DNA from: Whitmania pigra
Lineage: Eukaryota; Annelida; Clitellata; Hirudinida; Haemopidae
Reading direction: 5' to 3'
DNA: 64,000 nucleotides
NCBI GenBank assembly: GCA_021613335.1
Contig: JAJTWR010000269.1
Coordinates: 1,222,501 to 1,286,500, forward strand
This document shows, in pieces, positions 18,864 through 41,883 of this stretch (positions are counted from its first letter, which is position 1; the number at the start of each line of letters is the position of its first letter). Made by a program: the position numbers and the translations under genes. The notes under the pieces are model-generated. The model made no database searches. It saw nothing but the letters and a program-made list of their open reading frames with translations, and was not told the DNA's origin.

Positions 18864-18900
<37 letters not shown>

Positions 18901-21900
18901 ATTATTATTATTATTATTAATATTATTATTATTATTATTAATATTATTATTATTATTTCAGGCCGAATAGACATGACCTTACAACTATAGCAACGCATTC
19001 AGTGATTGCCCATTTACAGCAGTAAACAAACAACTTCAAAATAAATTCAGCTGTAGACCCTTAGTACTTAGTACATACTGTTTCTGTACAAAAAATCTGT
19101 AAGGTTTTTAAGAGTACTGCATATTTATTATATTATAATGTTGTACACTAGTTGTTGTAGAAGTTGTAATTTGTAGAAATTGTAATTTGTAAGTTGTAAT
19201 TTGTACCAACATGGAAAAATGTTCTGGAAGCGATTCAAGGGTTTCAATTCTGGTTGCTGTGCGTAGGACGTTGACATTTCCATAACTTTCGGGATGGTCT
19301 GAAGTTTGATTTTAGAAGTCATTAGTTTTTAGATGCCATGCAATTTAAAAATAATGACGGCGCTGACTTATATGAGGAATAATTTTATGAACAATAGCGA
19401 TAGAGTGCTACAATTTAAAAAATTAATTGTTTCTATTTGAGGGGATGTTCAATTGACAAGGAAGTTTGATAAAGATAATTGGAACATTTGTTTGTTCTGA
19501 AGAAAATTAAATAACTTAATAATTTATACTACTTATGTAATTATATTACTTTTATGATTTAATATTTAGTTTTCATGAAATTCATATTTGACTTAATTGT
19601 TTTACTATACGAATACATTAATTATTTAGTAAATATAAAATATATGAACATTTAAAATTTAGTAACCTAGTAATTTTAGTAATCCCTAGTAATTATTATA
19701 ATCATACAGTGCCGCAATATTTAAAGTGACTAAAATAATGCCAAATAAATGTCGTCTGAGGATAAATTCTAATTATTCATAATAATAATCATAACAATAA
19801 CAATAATAAACATATTAGTAATTCCAAGCAACATTGATTTGAATGCATGCAGTTATATAGAATGCAAACAATTAAGCAATGTTTTATCGTGGATCAAAAG
19901 TAGAAAATAAAAATCAGTGAAAACATTTACAAACTTTGAATTCGATTTCAAATCCACTGCTGTCCTTCTCTGAAACTGTCCTTATGTGGGCACTTAAATC
20001 TTCTGTCTTGATTCTTGTTGCGCTCTGTTTTGGATCCACGTTGTTGTAAATCACTTCTATTGATAATAATAACTTTTTAATTTTATAAGAAATAATAACT
20101 TTTTGTATCAATAATAATAATTGTTTTCATTAAAATTTGATTCTTATTAATAGAAAGAGTAAGGCAACAATTACCAGGAGTTGTGGGAGTTGGTTTTGTG
20201 GTATTGCTCAATTCGAGGACTTTAGGGTTCACATTTTCTTTACATTTTCTGCTTTGCCTTCTTTAGAATAATAATTTTAAAATAAAAAATTGTAAATTAA
20301 CAAAGAAAAATTTTAATACCTTTTCCATAGCAAAACAAACAGAGTTCCAAGCAGTATCAATAATAACGTTACAAAAAACCCTGCCACTATTTTGCCAGCA
20401 TTTGAATGAGCTAAGTTGAAGTTTATGTTTGGTATTTAATTGATTAATTTTAAAATATTAATATTTATAGAAAAGTTTATACATTGTTAAACGATGAAAA
20501 ATTATTTATTAATTAAAGTAGACATTAAGTTAACCTTTGCATAAAAGCACATCATCTTCTTCAACTAAATAATATCCATCGGCACATAGAAATTTTACAC
20601 TTCCTATTGAATTGATGCAAATTAAATTTTCGGTAAAATTTCGAATTTCGCATTCATTTACATCTGAAAAAGTTAAATTTAATGTGAAATAAGTATGATC
20701 ATCTTTTATTTTTATTCAAAAATTTTATGTCAAATTTAGTCAAAAAAATATAAATTGTAAATTAGACTTTCAATTGAGTTTTTGTGTTCTAATCGCTTCC
20801 ATTAAACGGTAAGATCAACAGCTACTTATATCCGGTGTGTGCATTCAACCTATTCAGCAATCAGGTTGGTGCAGGAGTGATAGGTTCCTAAAGGAACTAC
20901 TCAAAGTGTTTCTTTGACACAAATCGTGTCGTAGAAGTATGTGATTCATTATTCTATGAAATCGTGAACTCTACCACCTATACTTGCTTAAATGAATAAT
21001 TGTTTAGGTTGACTTTGAAATAAAAAAAAAATAACGTTATAACGCACTTCAAATGGTATTTATAGGTTTTTTCCAGACAGTAGTAACTACAATAACACTA
21101 CTTACTACACATAAATAAAGTTTCCCATTTGCTACATCTACTTTTCAAACTCTTTTCTATTCTGTGGTCCAAGATTATATTCTTTAATTCCTTTATCAAT
21201 AAAAGATCAATCTTTATCCGTTTCCTAAAGGCCTACCCTTGAGTTATTTTATTTTAAGTTGTCTTATCCTATTAGTTGTGGCTTATTGTTCTACTTAGTT
21301 AAATACAATTTTTTGTAATCAAAAAAAAACGTTGTTAAAAAGTTAACCTTCACAAACACCACTTTTAATTGCAAATCCTTCCCGGCATCGAAGTTCGTAT
21401 GATCCATATGTATTAATACATTCCGTTGACGTTTTATTGAAAACAACTCTTTCACATTCATTTATATCTGTTCAGTTGTAATTTTTTTCAAGTTAATGGA
21501 AAATTAGCAATCATTCATTATGCAATATTCCGTACCATAAATACCATCGCCTTAAGCCTAGAATTAATTTTTATTCAATAAAACTGAACTAAAATAATGC
21601 CACATTAAAGCTTTTATTAGTAACCTGAAATAAATAAGTATACTTACGCTTGTGGCACTACACATATTCATTTATTATTATTATTTATTATTATTAATTA
21701 TTATTATTATTATTGACCTTTTTTAAGAAAAAGGGAAAAAAACATTCAATTACATGTTATATATTTAATCACTCAATATAATTTAATAAATTTAAATTAT
21801 AAACATATTTAAAATAATTTTCATTAATATTTATAAATACAAATTTAATAAAACTAACCTCTGCAGCTTTTATTATTCACAGGTATGCTTTCGTAACCAT

Positions 21901-24900
21901 CGAGACAATGACATACAAAACCCCCATCGATGTTTTCACATGTTGTGGTTTGTTTGTCACAATCATGTTTATTCATTGAGCACTCATCAAAGTCTGGGTA
22001 CAATTTTCAATTCTTATTTGTAATGATGTAAGGAATAATTACATATGATCAAATATGGTTAAAATAACCACGCTAACCTGAGCATTTGGATTCACTTAAT
22101 CTTGAATATCCATCTTTGCAGTGACACAAATAACTCCCCTGGTTATTTTGACAGTTTGTTGATTTTTTATCACAACTATTTTTTGAACATTCGTCGATGT
22201 CTTTGAATTAAATGAATATTCTTATTAACATGTTAAGATGAATATTAACGTTCTAAAAATGTACCTTTGCAGGATGTATTGTTGGAGCTGATTTTCTCAA
22301 ATCCAGCTTTGCAATCACAACGAAAGTTTCTTTTAACATTTGTGCATATTGTTGTTGAAAGATCACAGTTGTGAGAGTTTAGTAAGCATTCGTCAACATC
22401 TGTGATATCAATATTGTATTGTATAATTGATAAATAATTATTTCTAGTTATTAATTATTTGAAATTATTAACTGAATATTGCTGTGTAATTGCTACTTAG
22501 CATTGATTAACAATAAATATTAATCTATGAAATTAATGTATGACAAAATCTACACTGACATTAACAAAGATAAAATAAAATTTTGAATATATTAGTAATT
22601 AAACAGTAAAAATAAACTTAATGTTTAATTATAACAGAACCTACAGAATGTTATTTGATTTTTTACTTAAATAACATTAAATTACCTGAACAGCTGGTGT
22701 GATTAAATGGTTTAAAACCAGGTTTACAATTGCATTTAAAACTGCCAACCATATTTTCACAGGTTGTCGACGAAGCATCACATTGATTTTGAAAACATTC
22801 ATCGATGTCTGTATATTACAAATTAATTAAATGATATCATTTTTATTCATTTATTTTAAATACCACTTCTACAATAAAATTAAATATTCATAAATATTAA
22901 CAATCATGAAATATTGAATTATTAAAATTAAAAGAAACAAAAAAGCACTTTAAATTTATCCTTAATTCCTTTATGAATTATAATGACACTATTAACAATA
23001 ATAACGTTGCTTAATGATTATAATTATAACTTAACATTATTATATTAATATAATGCAATACACATTAGGTCATGATGAAGCTTCTTAAATACACTACCAT
23101 TTCAATAGCACCCCAAAGTCGCTTCCCGATGGTGCAGGGTGGGTTTCGAATTATTCGCTAATTTATTTTCAAATTTATGTAAAACATTAACTGCATTAAC
23201 ATTAATTATATTTTTAAATGCTATTTTTTTAATATTATAATGGTGAAAATGTTTTTTAAAAATACTTTAAAATATATTTGTTTAATTAAATTAAATTAAA
23301 GGAATATTTAAATAAAACAAAATGTAATCAATTTATATCACTACTTGATATGCTTACCCACACATCCGAGGAAATATGAATAATGTCTTTGATATCCAAC
23401 ATTACAATCACAGACGTAAGAACCATCTGTGTTACGACAAGTTGAAGTTCCTGAGTCACATAAACTTGTGTCTTTGCATTCATCAATGTCTGAAGTAATT
23501 AGAGCATAATGAAATTTTCACAAAACTTTAAAGTACATAGACTAAGACTGCAATTTTTTTGTAAATGGTAATTCAAACCATTATTACAAAATTTATAACT
23601 AAAAAATGCAATTAATATTTATAATCTACAAACCTTTGCATTTATATGGATCACTGTGATCCTGTTGATATCCTTTCTTACATTGACAATTGTAAGAACC
23701 ATCAGTGTTAAAACAAGTAGTACTGGTGATATTACATTTATGTTTGTTATTTCTGCACTCGTCGTAATCTGAAATATGATAGCAGACAAAATATAAATGC
23801 GTCGCAATTGCATTAATATCAATTAAAGAGCTCTTACCAACACATTTAACATTATAATGAGAATTCACATATCCTTCTCTGCACGAACAAGTGTAACTTC
23901 CAACATTGTTAATACATGAAGATGTCGTTGTATTGCAGGAATGGCTTGTTATGCATTCATCAATGTCTGCAAACATAAGAAATGTCGCAACAAAAGTAAA
24001 TATTGCATTTTTATTGCAATTAAACTAAATTTAATTCAATTTAATACATATATATATATACATATATATATATAACATACACATACATATAATATTACAA
24101 ATGACTTAACATATAATCACATTAACGAGGCTAACATCTAAAGGAATAATAGAGGTGTTATTAGTAATTACTCAAAATATTACAAATTTATTGAAATTAT
24201 TTAACATTAGCAAAATATTAGATATTCTATTTACCGCAAGTACTTACAATAACTTACCAATGCATTTAACAGCACTTTCATGTTGATATCCAGTTTTGCA
24301 ATTACAAACATAAGAACCAACATTGTTGCTGCAAATTGTGCTGCTCAAATCACATTGGTGTTTGTTACTATTGCACTCATCGACATCTGAATTAAAGTTA
24401 TTTTCAACAAATTTTGAAATAAAAGGATATCAAAAACATTAGATTTGAAATGAAAATTATATTTCATTCAAATAATTCAAATATAATCGTATTATTATTT
24501 AATTCGTCAAAATACTTATAAACAGACAACTAATTTTTATTTTTAAATATCTAATTAGAATTAATTTAAATTTCTAAATATAATACGCAATTATAACTAC
24601 GAACCATAGCAGTTAAAATACTGGTTTCCCCTGTGTTCGTAACCCTCATTGCACATGCAAGAATAACTACCGTCGAGGTTAGAACATGTTGAAATTGTTG
24701 TGTTGCAGGAATGATTGTTATTACGACATTCATCAATATCTGAAATATTTTGAACATTTAATCTTCTTTACTTTTTAAATAAATTGTGCAGATGTGAATA
24801 TATTTAGGAATAATTACATATATTTAGGAATAATTACATATATTTAGGAATAATTACATATATTTAGGAATAATTACATATATTTAGGAATAATTACATA

Positions 24901-27062
24901 TATTAATGAATAATTACATATATTAATGAATAAATCCTAATAGTTATATTAAATAACTCATTAGAATTGGTCATATAATTTATAGGTTGCCGCATAATAT
25001 AATAAAACATAAAATATTACAATTAACTGTTAAATAATTAGTTATATAAAGTACATATGACAAAGTAATATATTTAGAGAGGTGCTTGCATTTTGAAGTG
25101 AGGTTTGTTGTATTAATCGGATCATCTTTTAATTTATCAATGCAAGCCATGAGATTTTGGTGACGACTATGGATATTATGATATCATGATTATCCTTTAA
25201 TCTACTTTTTAAATAAAATGTAAGATGTGAATATATTTAGGACTAATTACATAAATTAATGAAGAAATCGCATTATTTAAAAGTTGTATATAAATTTCAT
25301 TTAATATTTTAAGACGAATAGAGCATAAAGCAAGAAGAACATCAAAATATAAATTATTACTTATATCTATAAATGAAGTTCATCATTAATAATGCAAAAA
25401 AACACAATTTATTCTTTTAGTTTATTTTTTTTTATAAAGAAGTATTTTAATTTCAAACATTACCAACCAGAGCAATTAGAATAAATATCCTCTTTAAAAA
25501 ATCCAACGTTACATTGACAACGTTTGTGCCAGACATTATTGACCAAAGCATGAGCACAAATCTCGTTAATTTCACAACCTTTGCAATCTGTTGAAATTGA
25601 ATGTTGCTAAAATATATATAATGATGATTTTTGAAATATTATTCATGAAATAACCATCAATGTAGGCTTCAACTTCGCAAATCGTTAGATGTTCTTTCGT
25701 TGGAAGTATTACAGCAAGATATCGATATCTGTCATGCGATTGACATGTTATCTCAATATTTTGAAGTCTTGCAACAGTTCCACATAACTGAAAATCCATC
25801 TCATCCGTTGGAAGCTTTTTGTTAGATAAATAAACACGAGCTTGCATAAGTCTTTCGGCTGTTAAAAAGTTGTAAATAAACTTAAACTTTCGGGAAATTG
25901 TGTTATTAATTCGCTTTAAAGAAGTTGTCTTTTCAAACCAGTTGCAATGTTGTTAATGTCTTCCCGATTTGTGATGATGACTTTGTTAATGTGTCTTTCT
26001 ACTTCAAGGTCAACATAAAACCATGGTTTCTCATCCATATTGGTGTGACTGCATGAACGACCATCGTTTACATTTGTATCGTTGTTTCCATCCACAGCAA
26101 GTGAAGCGTGTAATTCTTTGTAAGTTGAACTTTGCTTAGCCGGACGATTAAAGGCGACATTGACACCGTTCAAAAAGCGAGCTGTTATCAATTGTGATAA
26201 TTTATGTGAAGGATTGAAACCATATAACCTCTTTAAAAATGTTTTCCAACCAATGTCACATGTGTTCGTTGATCCTTTACGACATTTTGATAAGTAACAT
26301 TCGCCATTGCTTCTCATGCAAGGAACAGAGCTTTGACAATTGATACATGGTTTATTACAATTTTGACCATGTAATCCAACTGCGCAAACTGAGTTTTGCA
26401 ATATGTACATTTTATTTTTATTGAATTATTAAGAATCTTTTAAAATATCTACATCGTCAATCAAATGCGGTTATTTTATTTAAGAAATGTAAAAGCTTAA
26501 AAATAGTCCAAGATAATGAAAAATGCAAACCTGAATAAACACTGTAATGTTGTTCTCCTCCACAAAATTCATTTGTTGAGTCCTTGCAACGCTTCTGACA
26601 ATTACTTTCTTGAGTTGATATGCGAAAATTGTTTCCGCAATAACATTCATTGCCATTCTTTTGAAATATTATTAAATAAATAAATGCTATTAAAATAAAT
26701 TTAAATATGCATTAAATCTGACTTTTAAAGCTGCAAACGTGATTTGTCTATCTGTTTTACATTCCTCAATACACGATGTCACTGACGACTTATCCTTTTG
26801 AATAACATTTTGATAAAAATCTCCGTAGCAACCCAAGTAATGCCTAATTAGTTGACTATAACCTGGAAACAAAATGATATGAAATTATTGAAATAGTATC
26901 TAATTTGTAATTAATTGTAAATAGCTAATATGTTAATATAAGAATCCATATTTATAATACGACTATTAATTGCTAAAATAAATTAATTATTACGTGAAAC
27001 TCACCGTTTTTATTAAAATTAATTATTACGAAACAAGCAATATAGAAATGAAACTTCACCAT
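15330..27062 (-). CDS. Receptor protein tyrosine phosphatase with WSC, F5/8C and EGF ectodomain (RPTP-A)
   Basis: I can chain 35 coding exons with matching phases into about 1,466 residues. They run from ATG 27060-27062 to a TAG stop at 15330-15332. Signal peptide exon: 27005-27062. WSC domain: 26723-26862 and 26531-26657. Cysteine-rich module: 26251-26388. F5/8C (fucolectin-like): 25939-26181 and 25655-25858. EGF-like: 25468-25587, then 11 EGF exons between 24739 and 20535, each 120-135 bp in phase 1-1, mostly starting D-[IVF]-[DN]-E-C. Transmembrane helix: 20320-20410. Juxtamembrane: 20175-20260 and 19935-20056. Phosphatase D1: 19211-17465 plus 16916-17062, with WPDHGVP and [10 protein letters not shown], so catalytic Cys, Arg and the WPD Asp are present. 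D2: 16675-15330. It is a type I membrane phosphatase predicted to remove phosphotyrosine in response to an extracellular ligand, probably glycan or matrix. Small splice shifts are possible; the family assignment is secure. Confidence 0.9.
18752..18825 (-). other. RPTP-A exon ending in a GC splice donor
   Basis: This D1 exon (Y-D-H-T-R-V to A-S-H-I-T) must end at ACG followed by GCAAGT to keep the frame and match the paralogous exon of RPTP-C, which ends at ACG|GTACGT (59053). The intron is therefore of the GC-AG class. Confidence 0.75.
18855..18957. repeat. (ATT)n microsatellite in an RPTP-A intron
   Basis: Interrupted ATT trinucleotide run with periodic TTAATATT breaks. Confidence 0.9.
20820..21000. 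repeat. Possible interspersed repeat in an RPTP-A intron
   Basis: A GC-richer, non-coding block with a short palindrome (gttcctaaaggaac) inside a long intron between two EGF exons. Composition suggests an inserted element, but no termini or target duplication were found. Confidence 0.25.
23068..23155 (-). mobile_element. Diverged SINE fragment
   Basis: On the minus strand it matches the window's tRNA-derived SINE from the B-box-like ttcgaaaccca through ccctgcacc and on to the gtgct-nnn-aaatggt segment. It has many substitutions. It lies in the long intron between the fifth and sixth EGF exons of RPTP-A. Confidence 0.6.
24795..24930. repeat. 20-bp minisatellite in an RPTP-A intron
   Basis: Six to seven copies of the unit tatttaggaataattacata; a single diverged copy recurs near 25,230. 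Confidence 0.93.
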
Positions 27063-28090: not shown

Positions 28091-28120
28091 AACATATTTT
28101 TCACGATATTCATAATCCAA

Positions 28121-28405
28121 AACTTAATAGAAGAGGTCTGCCAAGAAGCTTAAGAAGTATTTGATGTTTTCCATCATGTTGTAAATACATGCTTTTCTTA
28201 AATAAACAGTTTTACGAAAAACAAACAAACGTTTTCTAGTTCAAATTTCTAATTTTAGCGTGTTAACTCAAAAATATATCTTACATAAAAATACAAAACA
28301 CCGATCGCTTAACCATACAATCCGGACCGTTACCGATAAAAGCTATAAAACTAACAAATAAGAATATGTCCGAAGATATTTGGGCAATTAAGTACCTTTT
28401 TAAAT
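28121..28405 (+). pseudogene. Truncated left-edge ELOF1 unit
   Basis: Only the last codons of the ELOF1-like gene plus its 3' flank are present. Compared with internal units, the stop-proximal sequence has a 1-nt deletion and several substitutions. The first AATAAA is changed to AATACA, and the A-run reads gaaaaacaaacaaacg. Beyond about 28,220 it matches the other units. Confidence 0.9.
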
Positions 28406-28666
28406 AAAGAGACACTTATAAAACGAAACATTATAATGGCAAAGTCATTGTTATTATCGAAAAATCCTATCATCCTACCAATTATTTTCTTTAATTAATT
28501 TTGGGTGTAATATTCAGAATCTTTTTCTCCTACTTCGATTAGTTATTAACGTGTCGATTAGCATATACGAACTCGCATAGTGATTCTGCTGAGCGAATAG
28601 TTACGACAATTCTTGAGGCTTTAATCTAAAACCTAAGAATCTCGACTAGACCTTTTCAACAAAGCG

Positions 28667-28957
28667 ATGGGTAAACGCAAAACGGCGAAAAAGGCCGAAC
28701 CTAAACGCAAGCTCAGTCAGAAAATAGAAAATTGCTTTCCGTGCCCTTTTTGTAACATGTCAGGCTGCCAGGTTACGATCGACAAGAAGAGCAAAACGGC
28801 TGCAATATTTTGCGTTAAATGTCTCGAGAGCTTCCAGATGAAATCGAATTTACTTACTGAACCAATTGACGTGTATTGCGAATGGTTCGATTCATCCCAA
28901 CAGCCCAAGAAGCCAACCGAAGAACCTTTAACAGAAGAGGTCTGCCAAGAAGCTTAA
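28667..28957 (+). CDS. ELOF1-like transcription elongation factor, copy 1
   Basis: The 96-residue product matches the Elf1/ELOF1 family: a basic N-terminus (MGKRKTAKKAEPKRK), a zinc-ribbon fold with CPFC (26-29) and CVKC (49-52), and the family's closing block EPIDVYCEWFD (65-75). ELOF1 rides with elongating RNA polymerase II and aids passage through chromatin and transcription-coupled repair. Unusual points: no introns, a first zinc knuckle one residue shorter than in the human protein as I recall it, and an acidic tail of about 20 residues ending EEVCQEA where the human protein stops soon after the Trp-x-Asp block. AATAAA hexamers follow the stop at 28989 and 29006, then an encoded A-run (gaaaaaaaaacaaacg). 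TATAAA motifs at 28344 and 28417 are possible promoter elements. Confidence 0.93.
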   Translation: MGKRKTAKKAEPKRKLSQKIENCFPCPFCNMSGCQVTIDKKSKTAAIFCVKCLESFQMKSNLLTEPIDVYCEWFDSSQQPKKPTEEPLTEEVCQEA

Positions 28958-29471
28958 AGAAGTATTTGATGCCTTCCATCGAGTTGTAAATAAATGCTTT
29001 TCTTAAATAAACAGTTTTACGAAAAAAAAACAAACGTTTTCTAGTTCAAATTTCTAATTTTAGCGTGTTAACTCAAAAATATATCTTACATAAAAATACA
29101 AAACACCGATCGCTTAACCATACAATCCGGACCGTTACCGATAAAAGCTATAAAACTAACAAATAAGAATATGTCCGAAGATATTTGGGCAATTAAGTAC
29201 CTTTTTAAATAAAGAGACACTTATAAAACGAAACATTATAATGGCAAAGTCATTGTTATTATCGAAAAATCCTATCATCCTACCAATTATTTTCTTTAAT
29301 TAATTTTGGGTGTAATATTCAGAATCTTTTTCTCCTACTTCGATTAGTTATTAACGTGTCGATTAGCATATACGAACTCGCATAGTGATTCTGCTGAGCG
29401 AATAGTTACGACAATTCTTGAGGCTTTAATCTAAAACCTAAGAATCTCGACTAGACCTTTTCAACAAAGCG

Positions 29472-29762
29472 ATGGGTAAACGCAAAACGGCGAAAAAGGC
29501 CGAACCTAAACGCAAGCTCAGTCAGAAAATAGAAAATTGCTTTCCGTGCCCTTTTTGTAACATGTCAGGCTGCCAGGTTACGATCGACAAGAAGAGCAAA
29601 ACGGCTGCAATATTTTGCGTTAAATGTCTCGAGAGCTTCCAGATGAAATCGAATTTACTTACTGAACCAATTGACGTGTATTGCGAATGGTTCGATTCAT
29701 CCCAACAGCCCAAGAAGCCAACCGAAGAACCTTTAACAGAAGAGGTCTGCCAAGAAGCTTAA
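29472..29762 (+). CDS. ELOF1-like gene, copy 2
   Basis: Encodes the same 96 residues as copy 1. This unit matches the array consensus throughout. Confidence 0.92.
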   Translation: MGKRKTAKKAEPKRKLSQKIENCFPCPFCNMSGCQVTIDKKSKTAAIFCVKCLESFQMKSNLLTEPIDVYCEWFDSSQQPKKPTEEPLTEEVCQEA

Positions 29763-30276
29763 AGAAGTATTTGATGCCTTCCATCGAGTTGTAAATAAAT
29801 GCTTTTCTTAAATAAACAGTTTTACGAAAAAAAAACAAACGTTTTCTAGTTCAAATTTCTAATTTTAGCGTGTTAACTCAAAAATATATCTTACATAAAA
29901 ATACAAAACACCGATCGCTTAACCATACAATCCGGACCGTTACCGATAAAAGCTATAAAACTAACAAATAAGAATATGTCCGAAGATATTTGGGCAATTA
30001 AGTACCTTTTTAAATAAAGAGACACTTATAAAACGAAACATTATAATGGCAAAGTCATTGTTATTATCGAAAAATCCTATCATCCTACCAATTATTTTCT
30101 TTAATTAATTTTGGGTGTAATATTCAGAATCTTTTTCTCCTACTTCGATTAGTTATTAACGTGTCGATTAGCATATACGAACTCGCATAGTGATTCTGCT
30201 GAGCGAATAGTTACGACAATTCTTGAGGCTTTAATCTAAAACCTAAGAATCTCGACTAGACCTTTTCAACAAAGCG

Positions 30277-30567
30277 ATGGGTAAACGCAAAACGGCGAAA
30301 AAGGCCGAACCTAAACGCAAGCTCAGTCAGAAAATAGAAAATTGCTTTCCGTGCCCTTTTTGTAACATGTCAGGCTGCCAGGTTACGATCGACAAGAAGA
30401 GCAAAACGGCTGCAATATTTTGCGTTAAATGTCTCGAGAGCTTCCAGATGAAATCGAATTTACTTACTGAACCAATTGACGTGTATTGCGAATGGTTCGA
30501 TTCATCCCAACAGCCCAAGAAGCCAACCGAAGAACCTTTAACAGAAGAGGTCTGCCAAGAAGCTTAA
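30277..30567 (+). CDS. ELOF1-like gene, copy 3
   Basis: Identical product; consensus unit. Confidence 0.92.
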   Translation: MGKRKTAKKAEPKRKLSQKIENCFPCPFCNMSGCQVTIDKKSKTAAIFCVKCLESFQMKSNLLTEPIDVYCEWFDSSQQPKKPTEEPLTEEVCQEA

Positions 30568-31081
30568 AGAAGTATTTGATGCCTTCCATCGAGTTGTAAA
30601 TAAATGCTTTTCTTAAATAAACAGTTTTACGAAAAAAAAACAAACGTTTTCTAGTTCAAATTTCTAATTTTAGCGTGTTAACTCAAAAATATATCTTACA
30701 TAAAAATACAAAACACCGATCGCTTAACCATACAATCCGGACCGTTACCGATAAAAGCTATAAAACTAACAAATAAGAATATGTCCGAAGATATTTGGGC
30801 AATTAAGTACCTTTTTAAATAAAGAGACACTTATAAAACGAAACATTATAATGGCAAAGTCATTGTTATTATCGAAAAATCCTATCATCCTACCAATTAT
30901 TTTCTTTAATTAATTTTGGGTGTAATATTCAGAATCTTTTTCTCCTACTTCGATTAGTTATTAACGTGTCGATTAGCATATACGAACTCGCATAGTGATT
31001 CTGCTGAGCGAATAGTTACGACAATTCTTGAGGCTTTAATCTAAAACCTAAGAATCTCGACTAGACCTTTTCAACAAAGCG

Positions 31082-31372
31082 ATGGGTAAACGCAAAACGG
31101 CGAAAAAGGCCGAACCTAAACGCAAGCTCAGTCAGAAAATAGAAAATTGCTTTCCGTGCCCTTTTTGTAACATGTCAGGCTGCCAGGTTACGATCGACAA
31201 GAAGAGCAAAACGGCTGCAATATTTTGCGTTAAATGTCTCGAGAGCTTCCAGATGAAATCGAATTTACTTACTGAACCAATTGACGTGTATTGCGAATGG
31301 TTCGATTCATCCCAACAGCCCAAGAAGCCAACCGAAGAACCTTTAACAGAAGAGGTCTGCCAAGAAGCTTAA
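31082..31372 (+). CDS. ELOF1-like gene, copy 4
   Basis: Identical product; consensus unit. Confidence 0.92.
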   Translation: MGKRKTAKKAEPKRKLSQKIENCFPCPFCNMSGCQVTIDKKSKTAAIFCVKCLESFQMKSNLLTEPIDVYCEWFDSSQQPKKPTEEPLTEEVCQEA

Positions 31373-31886
31373 AGAAGTATTTGATGCCTTCCATCGAGTT
31401 GTAAATAAATGCTTTTCTTAAATAAACAGTTTTACGAAAAAAAAACAAACGTTTTCTAGTTCAAATTTCTAATTTTAGCGTGTTAACTCAAAAATATATC
31501 TTACATAAAAATACAAAACACCGATCGCTTAACCATACAATCCGGACCGTTACCGATAAAAGCTATAAAACTAACAAATAAGAATATGTCCGAAGATATT
31601 TGGGCAATTAAGTACCTTTTTAAATAAAGAGACACTTATAAAACGAAACATTATAATGGCAAAGTCATTGTTATTATCGAAAAATCCTATCATCCTACCA
31701 ATTATTTTCTTTAATTAATTTTGGGTGTAATATTCAGAATCTTTTTCTCCTACTTCGATTAGTTATTAACGTGTCGATTAGCATATACGAACTCGCATAG
31801 TGATTCTGCTGAGCGAATAGTTACGACAATTCTTGAGGCTTTAATCTAAAACCTAAGAATCTCGACTAGACCTTTTCAACAAAGCG

Positions 31887-32177
31887 ATGGGTAAACGCAA
31901 AACGGCGAAAAAGGCCGAACCTAAACGCAAGCTCAGTCAGAAAATAGAAAATTGCTTTCCGTGCCCTTTTTGTAACATGTCAGGCTGCCAGGTTACGATC
32001 GACAAGAAGAGCAAAACGGCTGCAATATTTTGCGTTAAATGTCTCGAGAGCTTCCAGATGAAATCGAATTTACTTACTGAACCAATTGACGTGTATTGCG
32101 AATGGTTCGATTCATCCCAACAGCCCAAGAAGCCAACCGAAGAACCTTTAACAGAAGAGGTCTGCCAAGAAGCTTAA
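31887..32177 (+). CDS. ELOF1-like gene, copy 5
   Basis: Identical product; consensus unit. Confidence 0.92.
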   Translation: MGKRKTAKKAEPKRKLSQKIENCFPCPFCNMSGCQVTIDKKSKTAAIFCVKCLESFQMKSNLLTEPIDVYCEWFDSSQQPKKPTEEPLTEEVCQEA

Positions 32178-32691
32178 AGAAGTATTTGATGCCTTCCATC
32201 GAGTTGTAAATAAATGCTTTTCTTAAATAAACAGTTTTACGAAAAAAAAACAAACGTTTTCTAGTTCAAATTTCTAATTTTAGCGTGTTAACTCAAAAAT
32301 ATATCTTACATAAAAATACAAAACACCGATCGCTTAACCATACAATCCGGACCGTTACCGATAAAAGCTATAAAACTAACAAATAAGAATATGTCCGAAG
32401 ATATTTGGGCAATTAAGTACCTTTTTAAATAAAGAGACACTTATAAAACGAAACATTATAATGGCAAAGTCATTGTTATTATCGAAAAATCCTATCATCC
32501 TACCAATTATTTTCTTTAATTAATTTTGGGTGTAATATTCAGAATCTTTTTCTCCTACTTCGATTAGTTATTAACGTGTCGATTAGCATATACGAACTCG
32601 CATAGTGATTCTGCTGAGCGAATAGTTACGACAATTCTTGAGGCTTTAATCTAAAACCTAAGAATCTCGACTAGACCTTTTCAACAAAGCG

Positions 32692-32982
32692 ATGGGTAAA
32701 CGCAAAACGGCGAAAAAGGCCGAACCTAAACGCAAGCTCAGTCAGAAAATAGAAAATTGCTTTCCGTGCCCTTTTTGTAACATGTCAGGCTGCCAGGTTA
32801 CGATCGACAAGAAGAGCAAAACGGCTGCAATATTTTGCGTTAAATGTCTCGAGAGCTTCCAGATGAAATCGAATTTACTTACTGAACCAATTGACGTGTA
32901 TTGCGAATGGTTCGATTCATCCCAACAGCCCAAGAAGCCAACCGAAGAACCTTTAACAGAAGAGGTCTGCCAAGAAGCTTAA
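32692..32982 (+). CDS. ELOF1-like gene, copy 6
   Basis: Identical product; consensus unit. Confidence 0.92.
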   Translation: MGKRKTAKKAEPKRKLSQKIENCFPCPFCNMSGCQVTIDKKSKTAAIFCVKCLESFQMKSNLLTEPIDVYCEWFDSSQQPKKPTEEPLTEEVCQEA

Positions 32983-33496
32983 AGAAGTATTTGATGCCTT
33001 CCATCGAGTTGTAAATAAATGCTTTTCTTAAATAAACAGTTTTACGAAAAAAAAACAAACGTTTTCTAGTTCAAATTTCTAATTTTAGCGTGTTAACTCA
33101 AAAATATATCTTACATAAAAATACAAAACACCGATCGCTTAACCATACAATCCGGACCGTTACCGATAAAAGCTATAAAACTAACAAATAAGAATATGTC
33201 CGAAGATATTTGGGCAATTAAGTACCTTTTTAAATAAAGAGACACTTATAAAACGAAACATTATAATGGCAAAGTCATTGTTATTATCGAAAAATCCTAT
33301 CATCCTACCAATTATTTTCTTTAATTAATTTTGGGTGTAATATTCAGAATCTTTTTCTCCTACTTCGATTAGTTATTAACGTGTCGATTAGCATATACGA
33401 ACTCGCATAGTGATTCTGCTGAGCGAATAGTTACGACAATTCTTGAGGCTTTAATCTAAAACCTAAGAATCTCGACTAGACCTTTTCAACAAAGCG

Positions 33497-33763
33497 ATGG
33501 GTAAACGCAAAACGGCGAAAAAGGCCGAACCTAAACGCAAGCTCAGTCAGAAAATAGAAAATTGCTTTCCGTGCCCTTTTTGTAACATGTCAGGCTGCCA
33601 GGTTACGATCGACAAGAAGAGCAAAACGGCTGCAATATTTTGCGTTAAATGTCTCGAGAGCTTCCAGATGAAATCGAATTTACTTACTGAACAACCATTG
33701 ACGTGTATTGCGAATGGTTCGATTCATCCCAACAGCCCAAGAAGCCAACCGAAGAACCTTTAA
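33497..33763 (+). pseudogene. ELOF1-like copy 7, frameshifted
   Basis: A 2-nt insertion near 33,692 (gaacaaccattg instead of gaaccaattg) shifts the frame after Glu65. The zinc-binding cysteines remain, but the conserved PIDVY-x-x-W block and the acidic tail are replaced by 23 unrelated residues before a stop at 33761-33763. It is the only copy with this change, so it is either a young pseudogene or an assembly error. Confidence 0.8.
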
Positions 33764-34303
33764 CAGAAGAGGTCTGCCAAGAAGCTTAAAGAAGTATTTG
33801 ATGCCTTCCATCGAGTTGTAAATAAATGCTTTTCTTAAATAAACAGTTTTACGAAAAAAAAACAAACGTTTTCTAGTTCAAATTTCTAATTTTAGCGTGT
33901 TAACTCAAAAATATATCTTACATAAAAATACAAAACACCGATCGCTTAACCATACAATCCGGACCGTTACCGATAAAAGCTATAAAACTAACAAATAAGA
34001 ATATGTCCGAAGATATTTGGGCAATTAAGTACCTTTTTAAATAAAGAGACACTTATAAAACGAAACATTATAATGGCAAAGTCATTGTTATTATCGAAAA
34101 ATCCTATCATCCTACCAATTATTTTCTTTAATTAATTTTGGGTGTAATATTCAGAATCTTTTTCTCCTACTTCGATTAGTTATTAACGTGTCGATTAGCA
34201 TATACGAACTCGCATAGTGATTCTGCTGAGCGAATAGTTACGACAATTCTTGAGGCTTTAATCTAAAACCTAAGAATCTCGACTAGACCTTTTCAACAAA
34301 GCG

Positions 34304-34594
34304 ATGGGTAAACGCAAAACGGCGAAAAAGGCCGAACCTAAACGCAAGCTCAGTCAGAAAATAGAAAATTGCTTTCCGTGCCCTTTTTGTAACATGTCAG
34401 GCTGCCAGGTTACGATCGACAAGAAGAGCAAAACGGCTGCAATATTTTGCGTTAAATGTCTCGAGAGCTTCCAGATGAAATCGAATTTACTTACTGAACC
34501 AATTGACGTGTATTGCGAATGGTTCGATTCATCCCAACAGCCCAAGAAGCCAACCGAAGAACCTTTAACAGAAGAGGTCTGCCAAGAAGCTTAA
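34304..34594 (+). CDS. ELOF1-like gene, copy 8
   Basis: Identical product. The coding part and its flanks match the consensus. Confidence 0.92.
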   Translation: MGKRKTAKKAEPKRKLSQKIENCFPCPFCNMSGCQVTIDKKSKTAAIFCVKCLESFQMKSNLLTEPIDVYCEWFDSSQQPKKPTEEPLTEEVCQEA

Positions 34595-35108
34595 AGAAGT
34601 ATTTGATGCCTTCCATCGAGTTGTAAATAAATGCTTTTCTTAAATAAACAGTTTTACGAAAAAAAAACAAACGTTTTCTAGTTCAAATTTCTAATTTTAG
34701 CGTGTTAACTCAAAAATATATCTTACATAAAAATACAAAACACCGATCGCTTAACCATACAATCCGGACCGTTACCGATAAAAGCTATAAAACTAACAAA
34801 TAAGAATATGTCCGAAGATATTTGGGCAATTAAGTACCTTTTTAAATAAAGAGACACTTATAAAACGAAACATTATAATGGCAAAGTCATTGTTATTATC
34901 GAAAAATCCTATCATCCTACCAATTATTTTCTTTAATTAATTTTGGGTGTAATATTCAGAATCTTTTTCTCCTACTTCGATTAGTTATTAACGTGTCGAT
35001 TAGCATATACGAACTCGCATAGTGATTCTGCTGAGCGAATAGTTACGACAATTCTTGAGGCTTTAATCTAAAACCTAAGAATCTCGACTAGACCTTTTCA
35101 ACAAAGCG

Positions 35109-35399
35109 ATGGGTAAACGCAAAACGGCGAAAAAGGCCGAACCTAAACGCAAGCTCAGTCAGAAAATAGAAAATTGCTTTCCGTGCCCTTTTTGTAACAT
35201 GTCAGGCTGCCAGGTTACGATCGACAAGAAGAGCAAAACGGCTGCAATATTTTGCGTTAAATGTCTCGAGAGCTTCCAGATGAAATCGAATTTACTTACT
35301 GAACCAATTGACGTGTATTGCGAATGGTTCGATTCATCCCAACAGCCCAAGAAGCCAACCGAAGAACCTTTAACAGAAGAGGTCTGCCAAGAAGCTTAA
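35109..35399 (+). CDS. ELOF1-like gene, copy 9
   Basis: Identical product. The A-run in its 3' flank (near 35,464) is one A shorter than in the other units. Confidence 0.92.
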   Translation: MGKRKTAKKAEPKRKLSQKIENCFPCPFCNMSGCQVTIDKKSKTAAIFCVKCLESFQMKSNLLTEPIDVYCEWFDSSQQPKKPTEEPLTEEVCQEA

Positions 35400-35912
35400 A
35401 GAAGTATTTGATGCCTTCCATCGAGTTGTAAATAAATGCTTTTCTTAAATAAACAGTTTTACGAAAAAAAACAAACGTTTTCTAGTTCAAATTTCTAATT
35501 TTAGCGTGTTAACTCAAAAATATATCTTACATAAAAATACAAAACACCGATCGCTTAACCATACAATCCGGACCGTTACCGATAAAAGCTATAAAACTAA
35601 CAAATAAGAATATGTCCGAAGATATTTGGGCAATTAAGTACCTTTTTAAATAAAGAGACACTTATAAAACGAAACATTATAATGGCAAAGTCATTGTTAT
35701 TATCGAAAAATCCTATCATCCTACCAATTATTTTCTTTAATTAATTTTGGGTGTAATATTCAGAATCTTTTTCTCCTACTTCGATTAGTTATTAACGTGT
35801 CGATTAGCATATACGAACTCGCATAGTGATTCTGCTGAGCGAATAGTTACGACAATTCTTGAGGCTTTAATCTAAAACCTAAGAATCTCGACTAGACCTT
35901 TTCAACAAAGCG

Positions 35913-36203
35913 ATGGGTAAACGCAAAACGGCGAAAAAGGCCGAACCTAAACGCAAGCTCAGTCAGAAAATAGAAAATTGCTTTCCGTGCCCTTTTTGTA
36001 ACATGTCAGGCTGCCAGGTTACGATCGACAAGAAGAGCAAAACGGCTGCAATATTTTGCGTTAAATGTCTCGAGAGCTTCCAGATGAAATCGAATTTACT
36101 TACTGAACCAATTGACGTGTATTGCGAATGGTTCGATTCATCCCAACAGCCCAAGAAGCCAACCGAAGAACCTTTAACAGAAGAGGTCTGCCAAGAAGCT
36201 TAA
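35913..36203 (+). CDS. ELOF1-like gene, copy 10
   Basis: Identical product; consensus coding sequence. Confidence 0.92.
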   Translation: MGKRKTAKKAEPKRKLSQKIENCFPCPFCNMSGCQVTIDKKSKTAAIFCVKCLESFQMKSNLLTEPIDVYCEWFDSSQQPKKPTEEPLTEEVCQEA

Positions 36204-36719
36204 AGAAGTATTTGATGCCTTCCATCGAGTTGTAAATAAATGCTTTTCTTAAATAAACAGTTTTACGAAAAAAAAACAAACGTTTTCTAGTTCAAATTTC
36301 TAATTTTAGCGTGTTAACTCAAAAATATATCTTACATAAAAATACAAAACACCGATCGCTTAACCATACAATCCGGACCGTTACCGATAAAAGCTATAAA
36401 ACTAACAAATAAGAATATGTCCGAAGATATTTGGGCAATTAAGTACCTTTTTAAATAAAGAGACACTTATAAAACGAAACATTATAATGGCAAAGTCATT
36501 GTTATTATCGAAAAATCCTATCATCCTACCAATTATTTTCTTTAATTAATTTTGGGTGTAATATTCAGAATCTTTTTCTCCTACTTCGATTAGTTATTAA
36601 CGTGTCGATTAGCATATACGAACTCGCATAGTGATTCTGCTGAGCGAATAGTTACGACACAATTCTTGAGGCTTTAATCTAAAACCTAAGAATCTCGACT
36701 AGACCTTTTCAACAAAGCG

Positions 36720-37010
36720 ATGGGTAAACGCAAAACGGCGAAAAAGGCCGAACCTAAACGCAAGCTCAGTCAGAAAATAGAAAATTGCTTTCCGTGCCCT
36801 TTTTGTAACATGTCAGGCTGCCAGGTTACGATCGACAAGAAGAGCAAAACGGCTGCAATATTTTGCGTTAAATGTCTCGAGAGCTTCCAGATGAAATCGA
36901 ATTTACTTACTGAACCAATTGACGTGTATTGCGAATGGTTCGATTCATCCCAACAGCCCAAGAAGCCAACCGAAGAACCTTTAACAGAAGAGGTCTGCCA
37001 AGAAGCTTAA
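36720..37010 (+). CDS. ELOF1-like gene, copy 11
   Basis: Identical product. The upstream flank has a 2-nt insertion (ttacgacacaattc near 36,653). The downstream flank has a 4-nt duplication (gtgttaactaactc near 37,119). Confidence 0.92.
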   Translation: MGKRKTAKKAEPKRKLSQKIENCFPCPFCNMSGCQVTIDKKSKTAAIFCVKCLESFQMKSNLLTEPIDVYCEWFDSSQQPKKPTEEPLTEEVCQEA

Positions 37011-37528
37011 AGAAGTATTTGATGCCTTCCATCGAGTTGTAAATAAATGCTTTTCTTAAATAAACAGTTTTACGAAAAAAAAACAAACGTTTTCTAGTTC
37101 AAATTTCTAATTTTAGCGTGTTAACTAACTCAAAAATATATCTTACATAAAAATACAAAACACCGATCGCTTAACCATACAATCCGGACCGTTACCGATA
37201 AAAGCTATAAAACTAACAAATAAGAATATGTCCGAAGATATTTGGGCAATTAAGTACCTTTTTAAATAAAGAGACACTTATAAAACGAAACATTATAATG
37301 GCAAAGTCATTGTTATTATCGAAAAATCCTATCATCCTACCAATTATTTTCTTTAATTAATTTTGGGTGTAATATTCAGAATCTTTTTCTCCTACTTCGA
37401 TTAGTTATTAACGTGTCGATTAGCATATACGAACTCGCATAGTGATTCTGCTGAGCGAATAGTTACGACAATTCTTGAGGCTTTAATCTAAAACCTAAGA
37501 ATCTCGACTAGACCTTTTCAACAAAGCG

Positions 37529-37819
37529 ATGGGTAAACGCAAAACGGCGAAAAAGGCCGAACCTAAACGCAAGCTCAGTCAGAAAATAGAAAATTGCTTT
37601 CCGTGCCCTTTTTGTAACATGTCAGGCTGCCAGGTTACGATCGACAAGAAGAGCAAAACGGCTGCAATATTTTGCGTTAAATGTCTCGAGAGCTTCCAGA
37701 TGAAATCGAATTTACTTACTGAACCAATTGACGTGTATTGCGAATGGTTCGATTCATCCCAACAGCCCAAGAAGCCAACCGAAGAACCTTTAACAGAAGA
37801 GGTCTGCCAAGAAGCTTAA
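37529..37819 (+). CDS. ELOF1-like gene, copy 12
   Basis: Identical product; consensus coding sequence. Confidence 0.92.
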   Translation: MGKRKTAKKAEPKRKLSQKIENCFPCPFCNMSGCQVTIDKKSKTAAIFCVKCLESFQMKSNLLTEPIDVYCEWFDSSQQPKKPTEEPLTEEVCQEA

Positions 37820-38333
37820 AGAAGTATTTGATGCCTTCCATCGAGTTGTAAATAAATGCTTTTCTTAAATAAACAGTTTTACGAAAAAAAAACAAACGTT
37901 TTCTAGTTCAAATTTCTAATTTTAGCGTGTTAACTCAAAAATATATCTTACATAAAAATACAAAACACCGATCGCTTAACCATACAATCCGGACCGTTAC
38001 CGATAAAAGCTATAAAACTAACAAATAAGAATATGTCCGAAGATATTTGGGCAATTAAGTACCTTTTTAAATAAAGAGACACTTATAAAACGAAACATTA
38101 TAATGGCAAAGTCATTGTTATTATCGAAAAATCCTATCATCCTACCAATTATTTTCTTTAATTAATTTTGGGTGTAATATTCAGAATCTTTTTCTCCTAC
38201 TTCGATTAGTTATTAACGTGTCGATTAGCATATACGAACTCGCATAGTGATTCTGCTGAGCGAATAGTTACGACAATTCTTGAGGCTTTAATCTAAAACC
38301 TAAGAATCTCGACTAGACCTTTTCAACAAAGCG

Positions 38334-38625
38334 ATGGGTAAACGCAAAACGCGCGAAAAAGGCCGAACCTAAACGCAAGCTCAGTCAGAAAATAGAAAAT
38401 TGCTTTCCGTGCCCTTTTTGTAACATGTCAGGCTGCCAGGTTACGATCGACAAGAAGAGCAAAACGGCTGCAATATTTTGCGTTAAATGTCTCGAGAGCT
38501 TCCAGATGAAATCGAATTTACTTACTGAACCAATTGACGTGTATTGCGAATGGTTCGATTCATCCCAACAGCCCAAGAAGCCAACCGAAGAACCTTTAAC
38601 AGAAGAGGTCTGCCAAGAAGCTTAA
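38334..38625 (+). pseudogene. ELOF1-like copy 13, frameshifted near the start
   Basis: A 1-nt insertion near 38,352 (aaaacgcgcgaaaaagg instead of aaaacggcgaaaaagg) shifts the frame after codon 6 and brings a stop at codon 13. An in-frame Met at 38425 could start a 66-residue product, but it would lack the basic N-terminus and the first CPFC zinc pair. It is therefore unlikely to work as an elongation factor. Confidence 0.82.
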
Positions 38626-39139
38626 AGAAGTATTTGATGCCTTCCATCGAGTTGTAAATAAATGCTTTTCTTAAATAAACAGTTTTACGAAAAAAAAACA
38701 AACGTTTTCTAGTTCAAATTTCTAATTTTAGCGTGTTAACTCAAAAATATATCTTACATAAAAATACAAAACACCGATCGCTTAACCATACAATCCGGAC
38801 CGTTACCGATAAAAGCTATAAAACTAACAAATAAGAATATGTCCGAAGATATTTGGGCAATTAAGTACCTTTTTAAATAAAGAGACACTTATAAAACGAA
38901 ACATTATAATGGCAAAGTCATTGTTATTATCGAAAAATCCTATCATCCTACCAATTATTTTCTTTAATTAATTTTGGGTGTAATATTCAGAATCTTTTTC
39001 TCCTACTTCGATTAGTTATTAACGTGTCGATTAGCATATACGAACTCGCATAGTGATTCTGCTGAGCGAATAGTTACGACAATTCTTGAGGCTTTAATCT
39101 AAAACCTAAGAATCTCGACTAGACCTTTTCAACAAAGCG

Positions 39140-39430
39140 ATGGGTAAACGCAAAACGGCGAAAAAGGCCGAACCTAAACGCAAGCTCAGTCAGAAAATAG
39201 AAAATTGCTTTCCGTGCCCTTTTTGTAACATGTCAGGCTGCCAGGTTACGATCGACAAGAAGAGCAAAACGGCTGCAATATTTTGCGTTAAATGTCTCGA
39301 GAGCTTCCAGATGAAATCGAATTTACTTACTGAACCAATTGACGTGTATTGCGAATGGTTCGATTCATCCCAACAGCCCAAGAAGCCAACCGAAGAACCT
39401 TTAACAGAAGAGGTCTGCCAAGAAGCTTAA
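39140..39430 (+). CDS. ELOF1-like gene, copy 14 (right end of the array)
   Basis: Identical product. Its 3' flank keeps the AATAAA motifs but becomes diverged from about 39,600 (a 6-nt deletion at aatccggaccgataaaag, then substitutions) and leaves the repeat at about 39,688. Confidence 0.92.
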   Translation: MGKRKTAKKAEPKRKLSQKIENCFPCPFCNMSGCQVTIDKKSKTAAIFCVKCLESFQMKSNLLTEPIDVYCEWFDSSQQPKKPTEEPLTEEVCQEA

Positions 39431-39688
39431 AGAAGTATTTGATGCCTTCCATCGAGTTGTAAATAAATGCTTTTCTTAAATAAACAGTTTTACGAAAAAA
39501 AAACAAACGTTTTCTAGTTCAAATTTCTAATTTTAGCGTGTTAACTCAAAAATATATCTTACATAAAAATACAAAACACCGATCGCTTAACCATACAATC
39601 CGGACCGATAAAAGCTATAAAACTAACATATAACAGTATGTCCGGAGTTATTTGGGCAATTAAGTACCTTTTTAAATAAAGAGACATA

Positions 39689-41883
39689 ATCCACACTTCA
39701 TCTATTTAATTAAATTTTCTTTATTGATATTAAATTTATCTAAAATGATACTCTCTGATGTGAAACCTATCAACATAATGGGTTATTTATTATATGCATT
39801 ACATTCACAGTTGACCATCACTCATTTGTAATGTTAATAATTTTTCATTTTAATTCTGTTAATCATTTATTAACTTAAATTATTTACTGTACAGAAGCAT
39901 ATCATTATTTTTTTTATAATAACTTCTTTTTCAGCGGCCATTTTAATATTCGCTACTTAGAAGATATTTGAGACAAGGAAGTATCCAGCAAACTTTAATC
40001 CTTGTGAATTTTAGTAATTATAAGGATGTTAAGCTTTGCTTATTTGTGCAATATCAAAATAAGGTATAGTTATTGTTCATTTTATTGCAAGTAAAAATTA
40101 TATTTTTGTACTCCATGTCAACATAAAAATTTTATTTGATGGTTGTCGTAAATCAAATCGGTGATATGTTTATGCTAACATTGACGTACAGTTGCCTTAT
40201 TACTTCTTTTCTTAGAAATACCACACTCCACATTGTCAGGCTTGGTAAGATTATGCATACTAAATGTGCTTGTAAGCAAAAGTTGGTTATTTACAATATG
40301 TTAAATTACTAGCATTAGTTTCCATATTATGACGCAATAAACAATTTTAAAAATCTTTAATGATTTAAAATTTTACCCCTCTCCTTGAATCGCAATGGAG
40401 ACAAATCCTTATATAGCAGATGTTGAGAATGATTATTATTTTTATGTAATGATTGTTGTTAGCAAAATTAATTTATAAAGTTTTAAAAGTACACGTATTT
40501 ATAAAATTTTCTGAAGCAATTATTTGTTAATTCAAACATCACCGGCAAAACGTTCACTAAAATATTATCACGTTATTTTTCAAATATTTTTTTAAAAATT
40601 TACATTATAAATTTATTTTATTTAATTATTTTAAAATAACATACTTTCAAGAACAATTCAAAGGAACTTGCAAGACTCGGCCAGCGCAATTCGTTATAAT
40701 TTGAATGTGTGGTCTGGTTTACGATTCTAATTTGGAGTTAGGGGTCGCTTGAATTTGCAAGTCGTTTTATAGAATGGCGTTGGCTTACAAGTTTTGATCT
40801 ATTGATCGACTAAGTTAGGGTGAATAAATGAATAAATAAAGAGTTGCTTGTGTTTCAGGATTCCTTTTGAAAGTTATCAGCGTTAGAGTTTGTTGAATCG
40901 TGACCAGAATGTTTGTTGGTGTAAGGATCGCTATTTTAACTAAGTGTGTTTTGGTATAAAATCATTTTTTTAATGTAGATGCTGAGCAACGAGTGAGGCC
41001 TGGTCCGAAATCAAAGCGATTTTCTCTGCCTTCTTTGTAACATTTGCAAACCTCCATAAAAATATTTAAGAGGTATTTGAACTACTTTTAAAATCCATGG
41101 ATTGTTACTTTGTTGTTAATTTGGTAATATCTTGTTTCAATGATGAGGAATTATCTGCAAAAAAGTTTCAATTATTTATTCAATGTGTCCTTCTGTCTAG
41201 CTCTCTTCTACAACTTTGTTTTTTTAAGTTGTTAGTTTCTACATGTTGTCTTCTTTCTGATAGAATTTGCAATAAATATTCTTTCTGGCGCATTCTTGAT
41301 TCTGATGCACATTTTAAGTAATTTGACATTGCTGTTCACTAGGTGATATAACAGGCCCTAAGTTTGTTTATTGTCGCTTTTTCTGTTTGAGGCCCATTCA
41401 TTGTCTCATTTTTCAACTTTGGTTGCCTCTTCAGCCGGCATGGCTTTTTCCATAGGTTTGTTGAAAGAGATTTCAATTTAGCCTCACATAAATTGTGCTG
41501 ATATTGCTTCATCATGTCTGCTGGAAAAAAATCACACATTCTGGCTTCTTATCTTATACTAATTGCAAGTTCCTCTGCAAATATACACAGATAATTATAT
41601 GAGTGTGTATTCCTGTTTAGTTTTTTTTTGTAAAATCACTACATAATGTTTTTTTTGTTGCCTCTTGCAATGTTTCGAAGAAAAATAAAACATTTCAAAA
41701 TAAAACCATAAAATATTGCATGGTCACAGTGTGTCAACGCCTTAAAAAAAAAAATCAAAACATTTACTTGCACACAAATTTCTGAAACAATGTCTGACCT
41801 CAAATAAATCCATTAGATATCTTGGATAATAAATAAATTTTTAATAAATTCATCAATCGATAGATCATCGGATGTCCATTTAG
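39689..41883. other. Intergenic region, possibly with non-coding exons
   Basis: No recognisable protein. Two exon-like blocks stand out: 40,860-40,917, after the acceptor gcttgtgtttcag and ending before GTGTAAG, and 40,980-41,039, after an acceptor-like taatgtag. Joined, they could encode a 23-residue peptide ending at 41039, or they may be untranslated exons. The minus-strand frame at 41339-41539 has no family resemblance. Confidence 0.35.
41876..41883 (+). promoter_or_regulatory. Splice-acceptor-like site 7 nt before the VWA gene start
   Basis: tccatttag is followed by gaagaaa and then the ATG at 41891. Confidence 0.45.

Follow-up and report, generated by a model that had tools for sequence, protein, structure and literature searches.

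A tandem array of intronless genes for a divergent ELOF1 paralogue in Whitmania pigra

A 64,000-nucleotide stretch of the genome of the annelid Whitmania pigra (hereafter the window; GenBank assembly GCA_021613335.1, contig JAJTWR010000269.1, positions 1,222,501 to 1,286,500 of the forward strand) carries a tandem array of 14 coding sequences related to ELOF1/Elf1, an RNA polymerase II elongation factor. The array is a multi-copy, divergent, intronless paralogue of ELOF1 and not the ELOF1 gene. All copies lie head-to-tail on the + strand with no intron in the coding sequence; 12 of the 14 encode one identical 96-residue protein and two are frameshifted. A sequence-only reading of this DNA had described about 14 such copies, 12 identical intact frames and an 805-bp period, all of which was reproduced by BLAST and the open reading frames, with coordinates agreeing to within 3 bp. 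It had taken the array for an amplification of ELOF1; the family stood but the gene did not, as the protein is a divergent paralogue only 41% identical to the canonical copy on contig C325, a result that suits the 'specialised variant' offered as an option at the time. At a probability of roughly one half, we favour the interpretation that the array is a constrained, probably retroposed ELOF1 paralogue that would still bind polymerase II without docking CSA and that was amplified for dosage.

Family and relatives of the array protein

The array protein scored 80.6 bits for the Pfam family Elf1 (PF05129), whose cut-off is 29.8. The four zinc-binding cysteines were present as two CxxC pairs (equivalents of C26, C29, C50 and C53), and one extra cysteine was seen both in the array protein and in its relative C19_C, described below. 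Twelve solved chains were matched by sequence, all of them ELOF1/Elf1 by name or, for 1wii (a mouse cDNA), by same-family annotation. The AlphaFold2 model, built from 40 sequences, had a mean predicted local distance difference test score (pLDDT) of 74.5, with residues 21-80 scoring 78-90 in blocks of ten. It contained strands at residues 34-39, 44-49 and 55-59 and a helix at 66-78, corresponding to a three-stranded sheet followed by a C-terminal helix. The top Foldseek match was ELOF1 in a Pol II-repair complex (8b3d_M; 0.8 Å over 58 columns), and the eight best PDB matches were all ELOF1/Elf1 chains, seven of them with E ≤ 0.001. The family assignment of the sequence-only reading was thereby confirmed.

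The genome (178 Mb, 381 contigs) was searched with PF05129 and all 25 candidates were scored. The 24 matches comprised the 14 array copies, seven on contig C19, two exons of a single gene on C325 and one on C42. The earlier reading had suggested looking for an intron-containing ELOF1 orthologue elsewhere, and the C325 gene is one: it is a canonical ELOF1 with the motif CPFCNHEKSC and, after M39, a GT-AG intron of 201 bp, which rules out the array as the only ELOF1 of this genome. No second array was found elsewhere by the PF05129 search; a DNA search listed only C19_C, not even the array, and adds little.

Four of the C19 copies (C19_A, B, C and D) were intact and intronless, and the remaining three were truncated or broken. 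Identity to the array protein was 61% for C19_C, 50% for C19_B, 38% for C19_A and C19_D, and 41% for the canonical C325 protein. In a 31-protein tree, the array and the four intact C19 proteins formed one clade (97/96), with the array beside C19_C (97/78). In a 41-protein tree, for which the bootstrap values are rough by the program's own warning, the array/C19 clade also took in the homologue P0121 (97/93), the array again paired with C19_C (99/94), and a further homologue, P0125, joined at 95/91. The array branch was long, at 1.11 and 0.81 changes per column in the two trees. Both placed the C325 protein outside the paralogue clade, among other ELOF1 sequences at an unresolved position.

P0121, from a 1.19-Mb ENA contig, is identical to C19_B at 74 of 82 residues by manual count; in the 41-protein tree it lay nearer C19_A and C19_D. 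It shows that the short-loop lineage to which the array belongs is not private to this genome. P0121 and P0125 share with the array a 19-residue spacing between the cysteine pairs and join its clade; both are known as single proteins, and in P0125, unlike the array protein, tyrosines replace the first two zinc cysteines. P0125 is an animal-type short-loop ELOF1 in a record labelled Staphylococcus aureus, evidently a contaminant and perhaps a further lineage of the short-loop subfamily. To our knowledge bacteria have no ELOF1-type gene, so under that label the protein can only be contamination.

An origin of C19 in another organism was ruled out by a 901-bp repeat common to C19, the array contig C192 and many other contigs, together with compatible composition. 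This stretch, beside C19_A, had at least 49 matches (40 of 591 candidates scored), most of those at full length being 90-96% identical, and recurred at 94% on C192. It matched no Pfam family, and its description as long interspersed nuclear element (LINE)-like is a reading of its translation. The C19 loci (L009, L012-L014) were 33-36% G+C, and their tetranucleotide distance to the window was 0.20-0.28, compared with 0.93-1.0 for two bacterial-looking loci. On C19, single-open-reading-frame BTB-BACK genes were also seen around a truncated ELOF1-like copy (L012 303-1595 and 5072-6286, also L011 and L013); copies of this stretch, up to the fetched length of 8 kb, occur with 99.7-100% identity in inverted orientation within C19 and also on C42.

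Compared with canonical ELOF1/Elf1 (human ELOF1 and the C325 copy), the array protein has the same basic N-terminal tail, C4 zinc ribbon, EPIDVYxxW block and predicted fold. It differs in its 41% identity to the C325 copy, in the substitutions E79→Q and I75→F, in a 14-residue acidic tail, and in a loop that is one residue shorter and has lost the H and E of N-H-E; the gene differs in being intronless and present in 14 copies. For yeast Elf1, PMC11266705 describes a long C-terminal domain that binds TFIIH via an aromatic residue flanked by acidic ones. The parallel with the acidic tail of the array protein fails against that description, as the array tail has no aromatic residue.

The loop between the zinc-binding cysteine pairs

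In the alignment, 19 residues separated the two CxxC pairs in the array protein and in the four intact C19 copies. The spacing could be measured by pattern in 179 of the 196 listed homologues; 164 have 20 residues and three have 19 (P0013, P0121 and P0125). The missing residue, after CPFC, falls at human N30-H31-E32. According to PMC10948364, these three residues of human ELOF1 dock CSA, and alanine mutants leave transcription intact and block transcription-coupled repair; the same text allows that E55 and E79 may add to the ELOF1-CSA contact. Of these five residues, the array protein retains N30 and E55, whereas H31, E32 and E79 are lost. The H and E of N-H-E are absent wherever the gap is placed, and the E79→Q change was read from one alignment, the array tail being misaligned in another. 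The canonical C325 copy keeps N30, H31, E32, E55 and E79, and glutamate occupies both 55 and 79 in 66 of 75 animal homologues picked by name.

On this comparison, the array protein probably retains polymerase binding and has probably lost CSA docking. It probably binds elongating polymerase II because it has kept its zinc ribbon, basic tail and C-terminal helix, with which ELOF1 bridges the RPB1 clamp and the RPB2 lobe. ELOF1 has further roles in strengthening promoter-proximal pausing and in stabilising SPT5 on polymerase II (PMC13232147), and the paralogue could therefore affect both pausing and elongation. This genome has part of the repair pathway, since the N-domain of UVSSA is encoded (PF20867, 137 bits); PF09740, also used for UVSSA, matched nothing in the genome and left the control sequences unmatched too.

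ELOF1 had been described as normally single-copy, which proved too strong: distinct second copies occur in other animals, for example Scaptodrosophila (P0126, P0132, P0217) and Allacma (P0016, P0147). Such second copies (Scaptodrosophila P0126, D. setifemur P0131, Allacma P0016) resemble the array in being divergent beside more canonical copies and altered at residues 30-32; unlike the array, they keep the 20-residue spacing. Among drosophilids, divergent ELOF1 proteins altered at residues 30-32 (for example NHK) were P0126, P0131, P0157, P0257, P0265 and P0267, some beside more canonical ones, and these might represent additional variation of the CSA-dock loop in nature.

Array architecture, homogenisation and selection

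The first full unit (28667-29471) was compared with the window by BLAST, giving a left partial unit, 13 full units and a right partial unit. The features, all on the + strand, are as follows.

28111..28119, +: first copy of a 9-bp direct repeat, CATAATCCA, shortly before the left edge; the second copy, at 39685-39693, overlaps the right edge
28124..28666, +: left partial unit, unit positions 262-805 (BLAST and unit alignment)
28667..33496, +: six full 805-bp units, mutually 100% identical (open reading frame list and BLAST), with intact 96-residue coding sequences, 291 bp each including the stop, starting at 28667, 29472, 30277, 31082, 31887 and 32692
28955..29030, +: 3' end of the first unit, with the stop, AATAAA at 28989-28994 and 29006-29011, and a run of nine A residues (read from the sequence)
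28958..29471, +: 514-bp spacer, 30% G+C, the expected promoter site of the next copy
33497..34303, +: unit with a frameshifted coding sequence (2-bp insertion at 33693 and one substitution), predicted 88-residue product with altered C-terminus
34304..38333, +: five full units with intact, identical coding sequences at 34304, 35109, 35913, 36720 and 37529
38334..39139, +: unit frameshifted close to the N-terminus by one inserted base pair at 38352 (codon 7)
39140..39686, +: partial unit at the right edge, covering unit positions 1-553 and carrying the last of the 14 coding sequences, intact, at 39140-39430

The 13 full units span 28667-39139 and are 804-809 bp each. Eight of them, the reference included, are an identical 805 bp; identity among all 13 was 99.5-100%, which is not chance. 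Compared with the first full unit, the 12 others together showed five small indel events and a single substitution adjacent to one of these; unit-specific variants occur in five of the 13. The frame of the copy at 33497 is broken near residue 66, with the substitution at 33696, and three of the five units in 34304..38333 carry small indels outside the coding sequence (-1, +2 and +4 bp). Since the differences are of this kind, both frameshifts may be recent, or else assembly errors. The copy number has the assembly as its sole source, and the array sits within the 2.57-Mb contig C192, at 1250624-1262186. Tandem Repeats Finder did not list the array, the longest period that it handles being 500 bp.

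The A9 run begins 10 bp beyond the second AATAAA in the first unit. Rfam gave no match in the window, the spacer included, and this, with a fold z of -0.88 for the 3' region, ruled out a structured RNA in the unit. For the spacer, the DNA search mentioned above listed no match outside the array, but it left the array's own copies unlisted too and so had low power. Bacterial-type signal models, uninformative for animal DNA, gave three promoter-like sites compared with 2.6 expected and no terminator-like site. The two CATAATCCA copies at the array edges are the only ones on the + strand of the window and bracket the whole array rather than one unit. They are a possible target-site duplication around the whole array; the array, or a founder with its spacer, may have been inserted as one piece, and coincidence could explain the pair too.

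Differences were concentrated at the edges of the array. The left partial unit carries seven substitutions and one deletion, all in its outer 99 of 543 bp (28124-28222), the other 444 bp equalling the reference. On the right, five substitutions and a 6-bp deletion all lie in the last 89 of 553 unit positions (39604-39686), the first 464 being identical. The edges are thus 6-7% diverged over the outer ~85-100 bp, and the chance of such clustering under an even spread, calculated as simple powers, is about 1e-6 (left) and 2e-5 (right). A uniform interior with diverged edges is the mark of gene conversion and unequal crossing-over, and the array is apparently evolving in concert; one very recent burst explains the pattern only if edges and interior were unlike at the outset. 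Homogenised tandem arrays of genes include those of histones, 5S rRNA and Stellate. The present array resembles them in its head-to-tail gene and spacer, uniform inside and diverged at the edges, and differs in what is repeated, a gene paralogous to that of a general elongation factor of polymerase II.

The array and C19_C coding sequences differ at 69 of 246 bases and 32 of 82 residues. By the NG86 method, nonsynonymous divergence (dN) was 0.231, synonymous divergence (dS) 1.316 and their ratio (omega) 0.175, with a codon bootstrap range of 0.07-0.38 (459 of 500 replicates; the other 41 saturated or failed). Of 5000 neutral simulations, each changing as many bases as differ between the two genes, 97.6% acquired a stop; amino-acid differences numbered 44 on average and 33 at minimum compared with the 32 observed. 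The coding sequence of the array lineage has been under purifying selection since its split from C19_C, a result that covers the lineage before amplification and not single array copies.

Origin, alternative explanations and the surrounding DNA

Retroposition is inferred because the intron is missing and because the genome holds a repeat family able to supply the enzyme: the array coding sequence runs uninterrupted where the parent-type gene on C325 has its 201-bp intron, as in a retrogene. The A9 run could be a relic of the poly(A) tail of the retrocopy. In the sequence of events proposed, an ELOF1 mRNA would have been retroposed with an enzyme from the LINE-like family, and the retrocopy would have gained a promoter and then duplicated, one descendant landing on C192. 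Unequal crossing-over and gene conversion would there have expanded the 805-bp units and would still homogenise them. Each unit would most likely be a complete small gene with its own promoter and polyadenylation signals, transcribed on its own, and together the units would supply large amounts of a zinc-ribbon protein that binds polymerase II and is unable to dock CSA. This product would most likely serve a single tissue as an elongation or pausing factor amplified for dosage, the obvious candidates being the germline and the early embryo, and would compete with or replace canonical ELOF1 on polymerase II without recruiting CSA.

Several points weigh against this interpretation. Retroposition is argued mainly from the missing intron, no homology to the parent being found outside the coding sequence, and the steps to a tissue-specific role are conjecture. 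The position of the gap within the loop is ambiguous, two alignments differing, and the array retains N30 and E55. NHE is found in just 52 of the 75 name-selected animal homologues, a set that includes second copies; E32 thus varies among proteins that are presumably functional, and its loss alone need not abolish repair. The YN00 omega for the array and C19_C was 0.414, above the NG86 value, with dS near saturation; for C19_A and C19_B the ratio was 0.41 by NG86 and 1.11 by YN00, and several other pairs were saturated, inestimable or higher. With two of the 14 copies frameshifted, selection on single copies is weak at best.

That last point belongs equally to a neutral, satellite-like expansion, in which a single-copy functional paralogue was caught in a tandem duplication of 805 bp whose growth and homogenisation were due to drift, most copies being dispensable and identical through recent exchange. 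This we consider possible though unlikely. It accommodates the two broken frames, the identity of the first six full units over 4830 bp, the restriction of differences among full units to small indels and one substitution, and a selection test concerned with the pre-amplification lineage rather than individual copies. It sits less well with 12 intact frames out of 14 and with units that resemble complete genes (coding sequence, two AATAAA signals, spacer), while diverged edges around a uniform interior suggest an older array, again unless the edges differed from the start. The same near-identity raises the question of a shorter array, perhaps of one or a few units, inflated by repeat misassembly: the inner units are too alike for independent ordering, and indel-dominated differences resemble residual long-read errors. 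An artefact of this kind is nevertheless improbable, given unit-specific variants in five of the 13 full units, distinct diverged partial units that anchor both edges in unique flanks, the position of the array inside a 2.57-Mb contig, and the confinement of array-type copies to C192 in the genome search. By analogy with the Stellate and Su(Ste) repeats of Drosophila, the amplification might also be selfish or the product of an arms race, with many copies of a basal-factor paralogue interfering with the canonical factor in the germline. A multi-copy, homogenised, intronless gene on a long tree branch would suit that idea; the selection found in the pairwise test with C19_C was purifying, not positive, and we judge it very improbable.

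Returning to the constrained, dosage-amplified paralogue, a more specific form of it is tentative and on balance doubtful: a natural separation-of-function ELOF1, in which an amplified elongation or pausing factor without CSA docking would let one cell type elongate or pause without recruiting transcription-coupled repair, at least 12 gene copies displacing canonical ELOF1. The coupling of elongation and repair by ELOF1 through one short loop is known from engineered human mutants. If the proposal is true, a natural, amplified, loop-less paralogue would be a ready-made experiment on the evolutionary separation of the two, a probe of why an animal wants a large dose of a general elongation factor, and a clean example of concerted evolution taking hold of a retroposed basal-transcription gene. 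No described ELOF1 array or dock-less ELOF1 paralogue was found in the literature as judged by titles and abstract openings, most subscription papers lying outside the search.

The flanks of the array were scanned with Pfam, a family being found in seven of the ten fragments scanned. Upstream, on the - strand, Y_phosphatase, EGF, F5/8C and WSC exons were identified, and downstream, on the + strand, VWA exons, in agreement with the earlier placement of the array between a receptor phosphatase and a VWA gene. The upstream exons (17429-26711, - strand) resemble a receptor tyrosine phosphatase with WSC, F5/8C and EGF domains. By eye, F5/8C and phosphatase exons like these are seen again near 51-54 kb and near 60.4 kb (51086-51355, 53974-54285 and 60400-60615); the sole one of these scanned, 53974-54285, fell below the F5/8C cut-off.

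Elsewhere in the assembly, Wnt exons were numerous (55 matches), as befits an animal. Four COX1 matches were found, all stop-free, and no mitochondrial gene was recognised. Three were fetched: two, on contigs C115 and C360, lie on stretches of 59-60% G+C, compared with 30% in the window outside the array, and the third is at 37%. The assembly seems to hold bacterial contigs, perhaps of symbionts. Within the window, two minisatellites built on one 14-bp motif, in opposite orientations (CGACAAAATAGCCC or its reverse complement), point towards each other across about 0.5 kb (55990-56278 and 56791-57066) and are possibly the ends of a mobile element.

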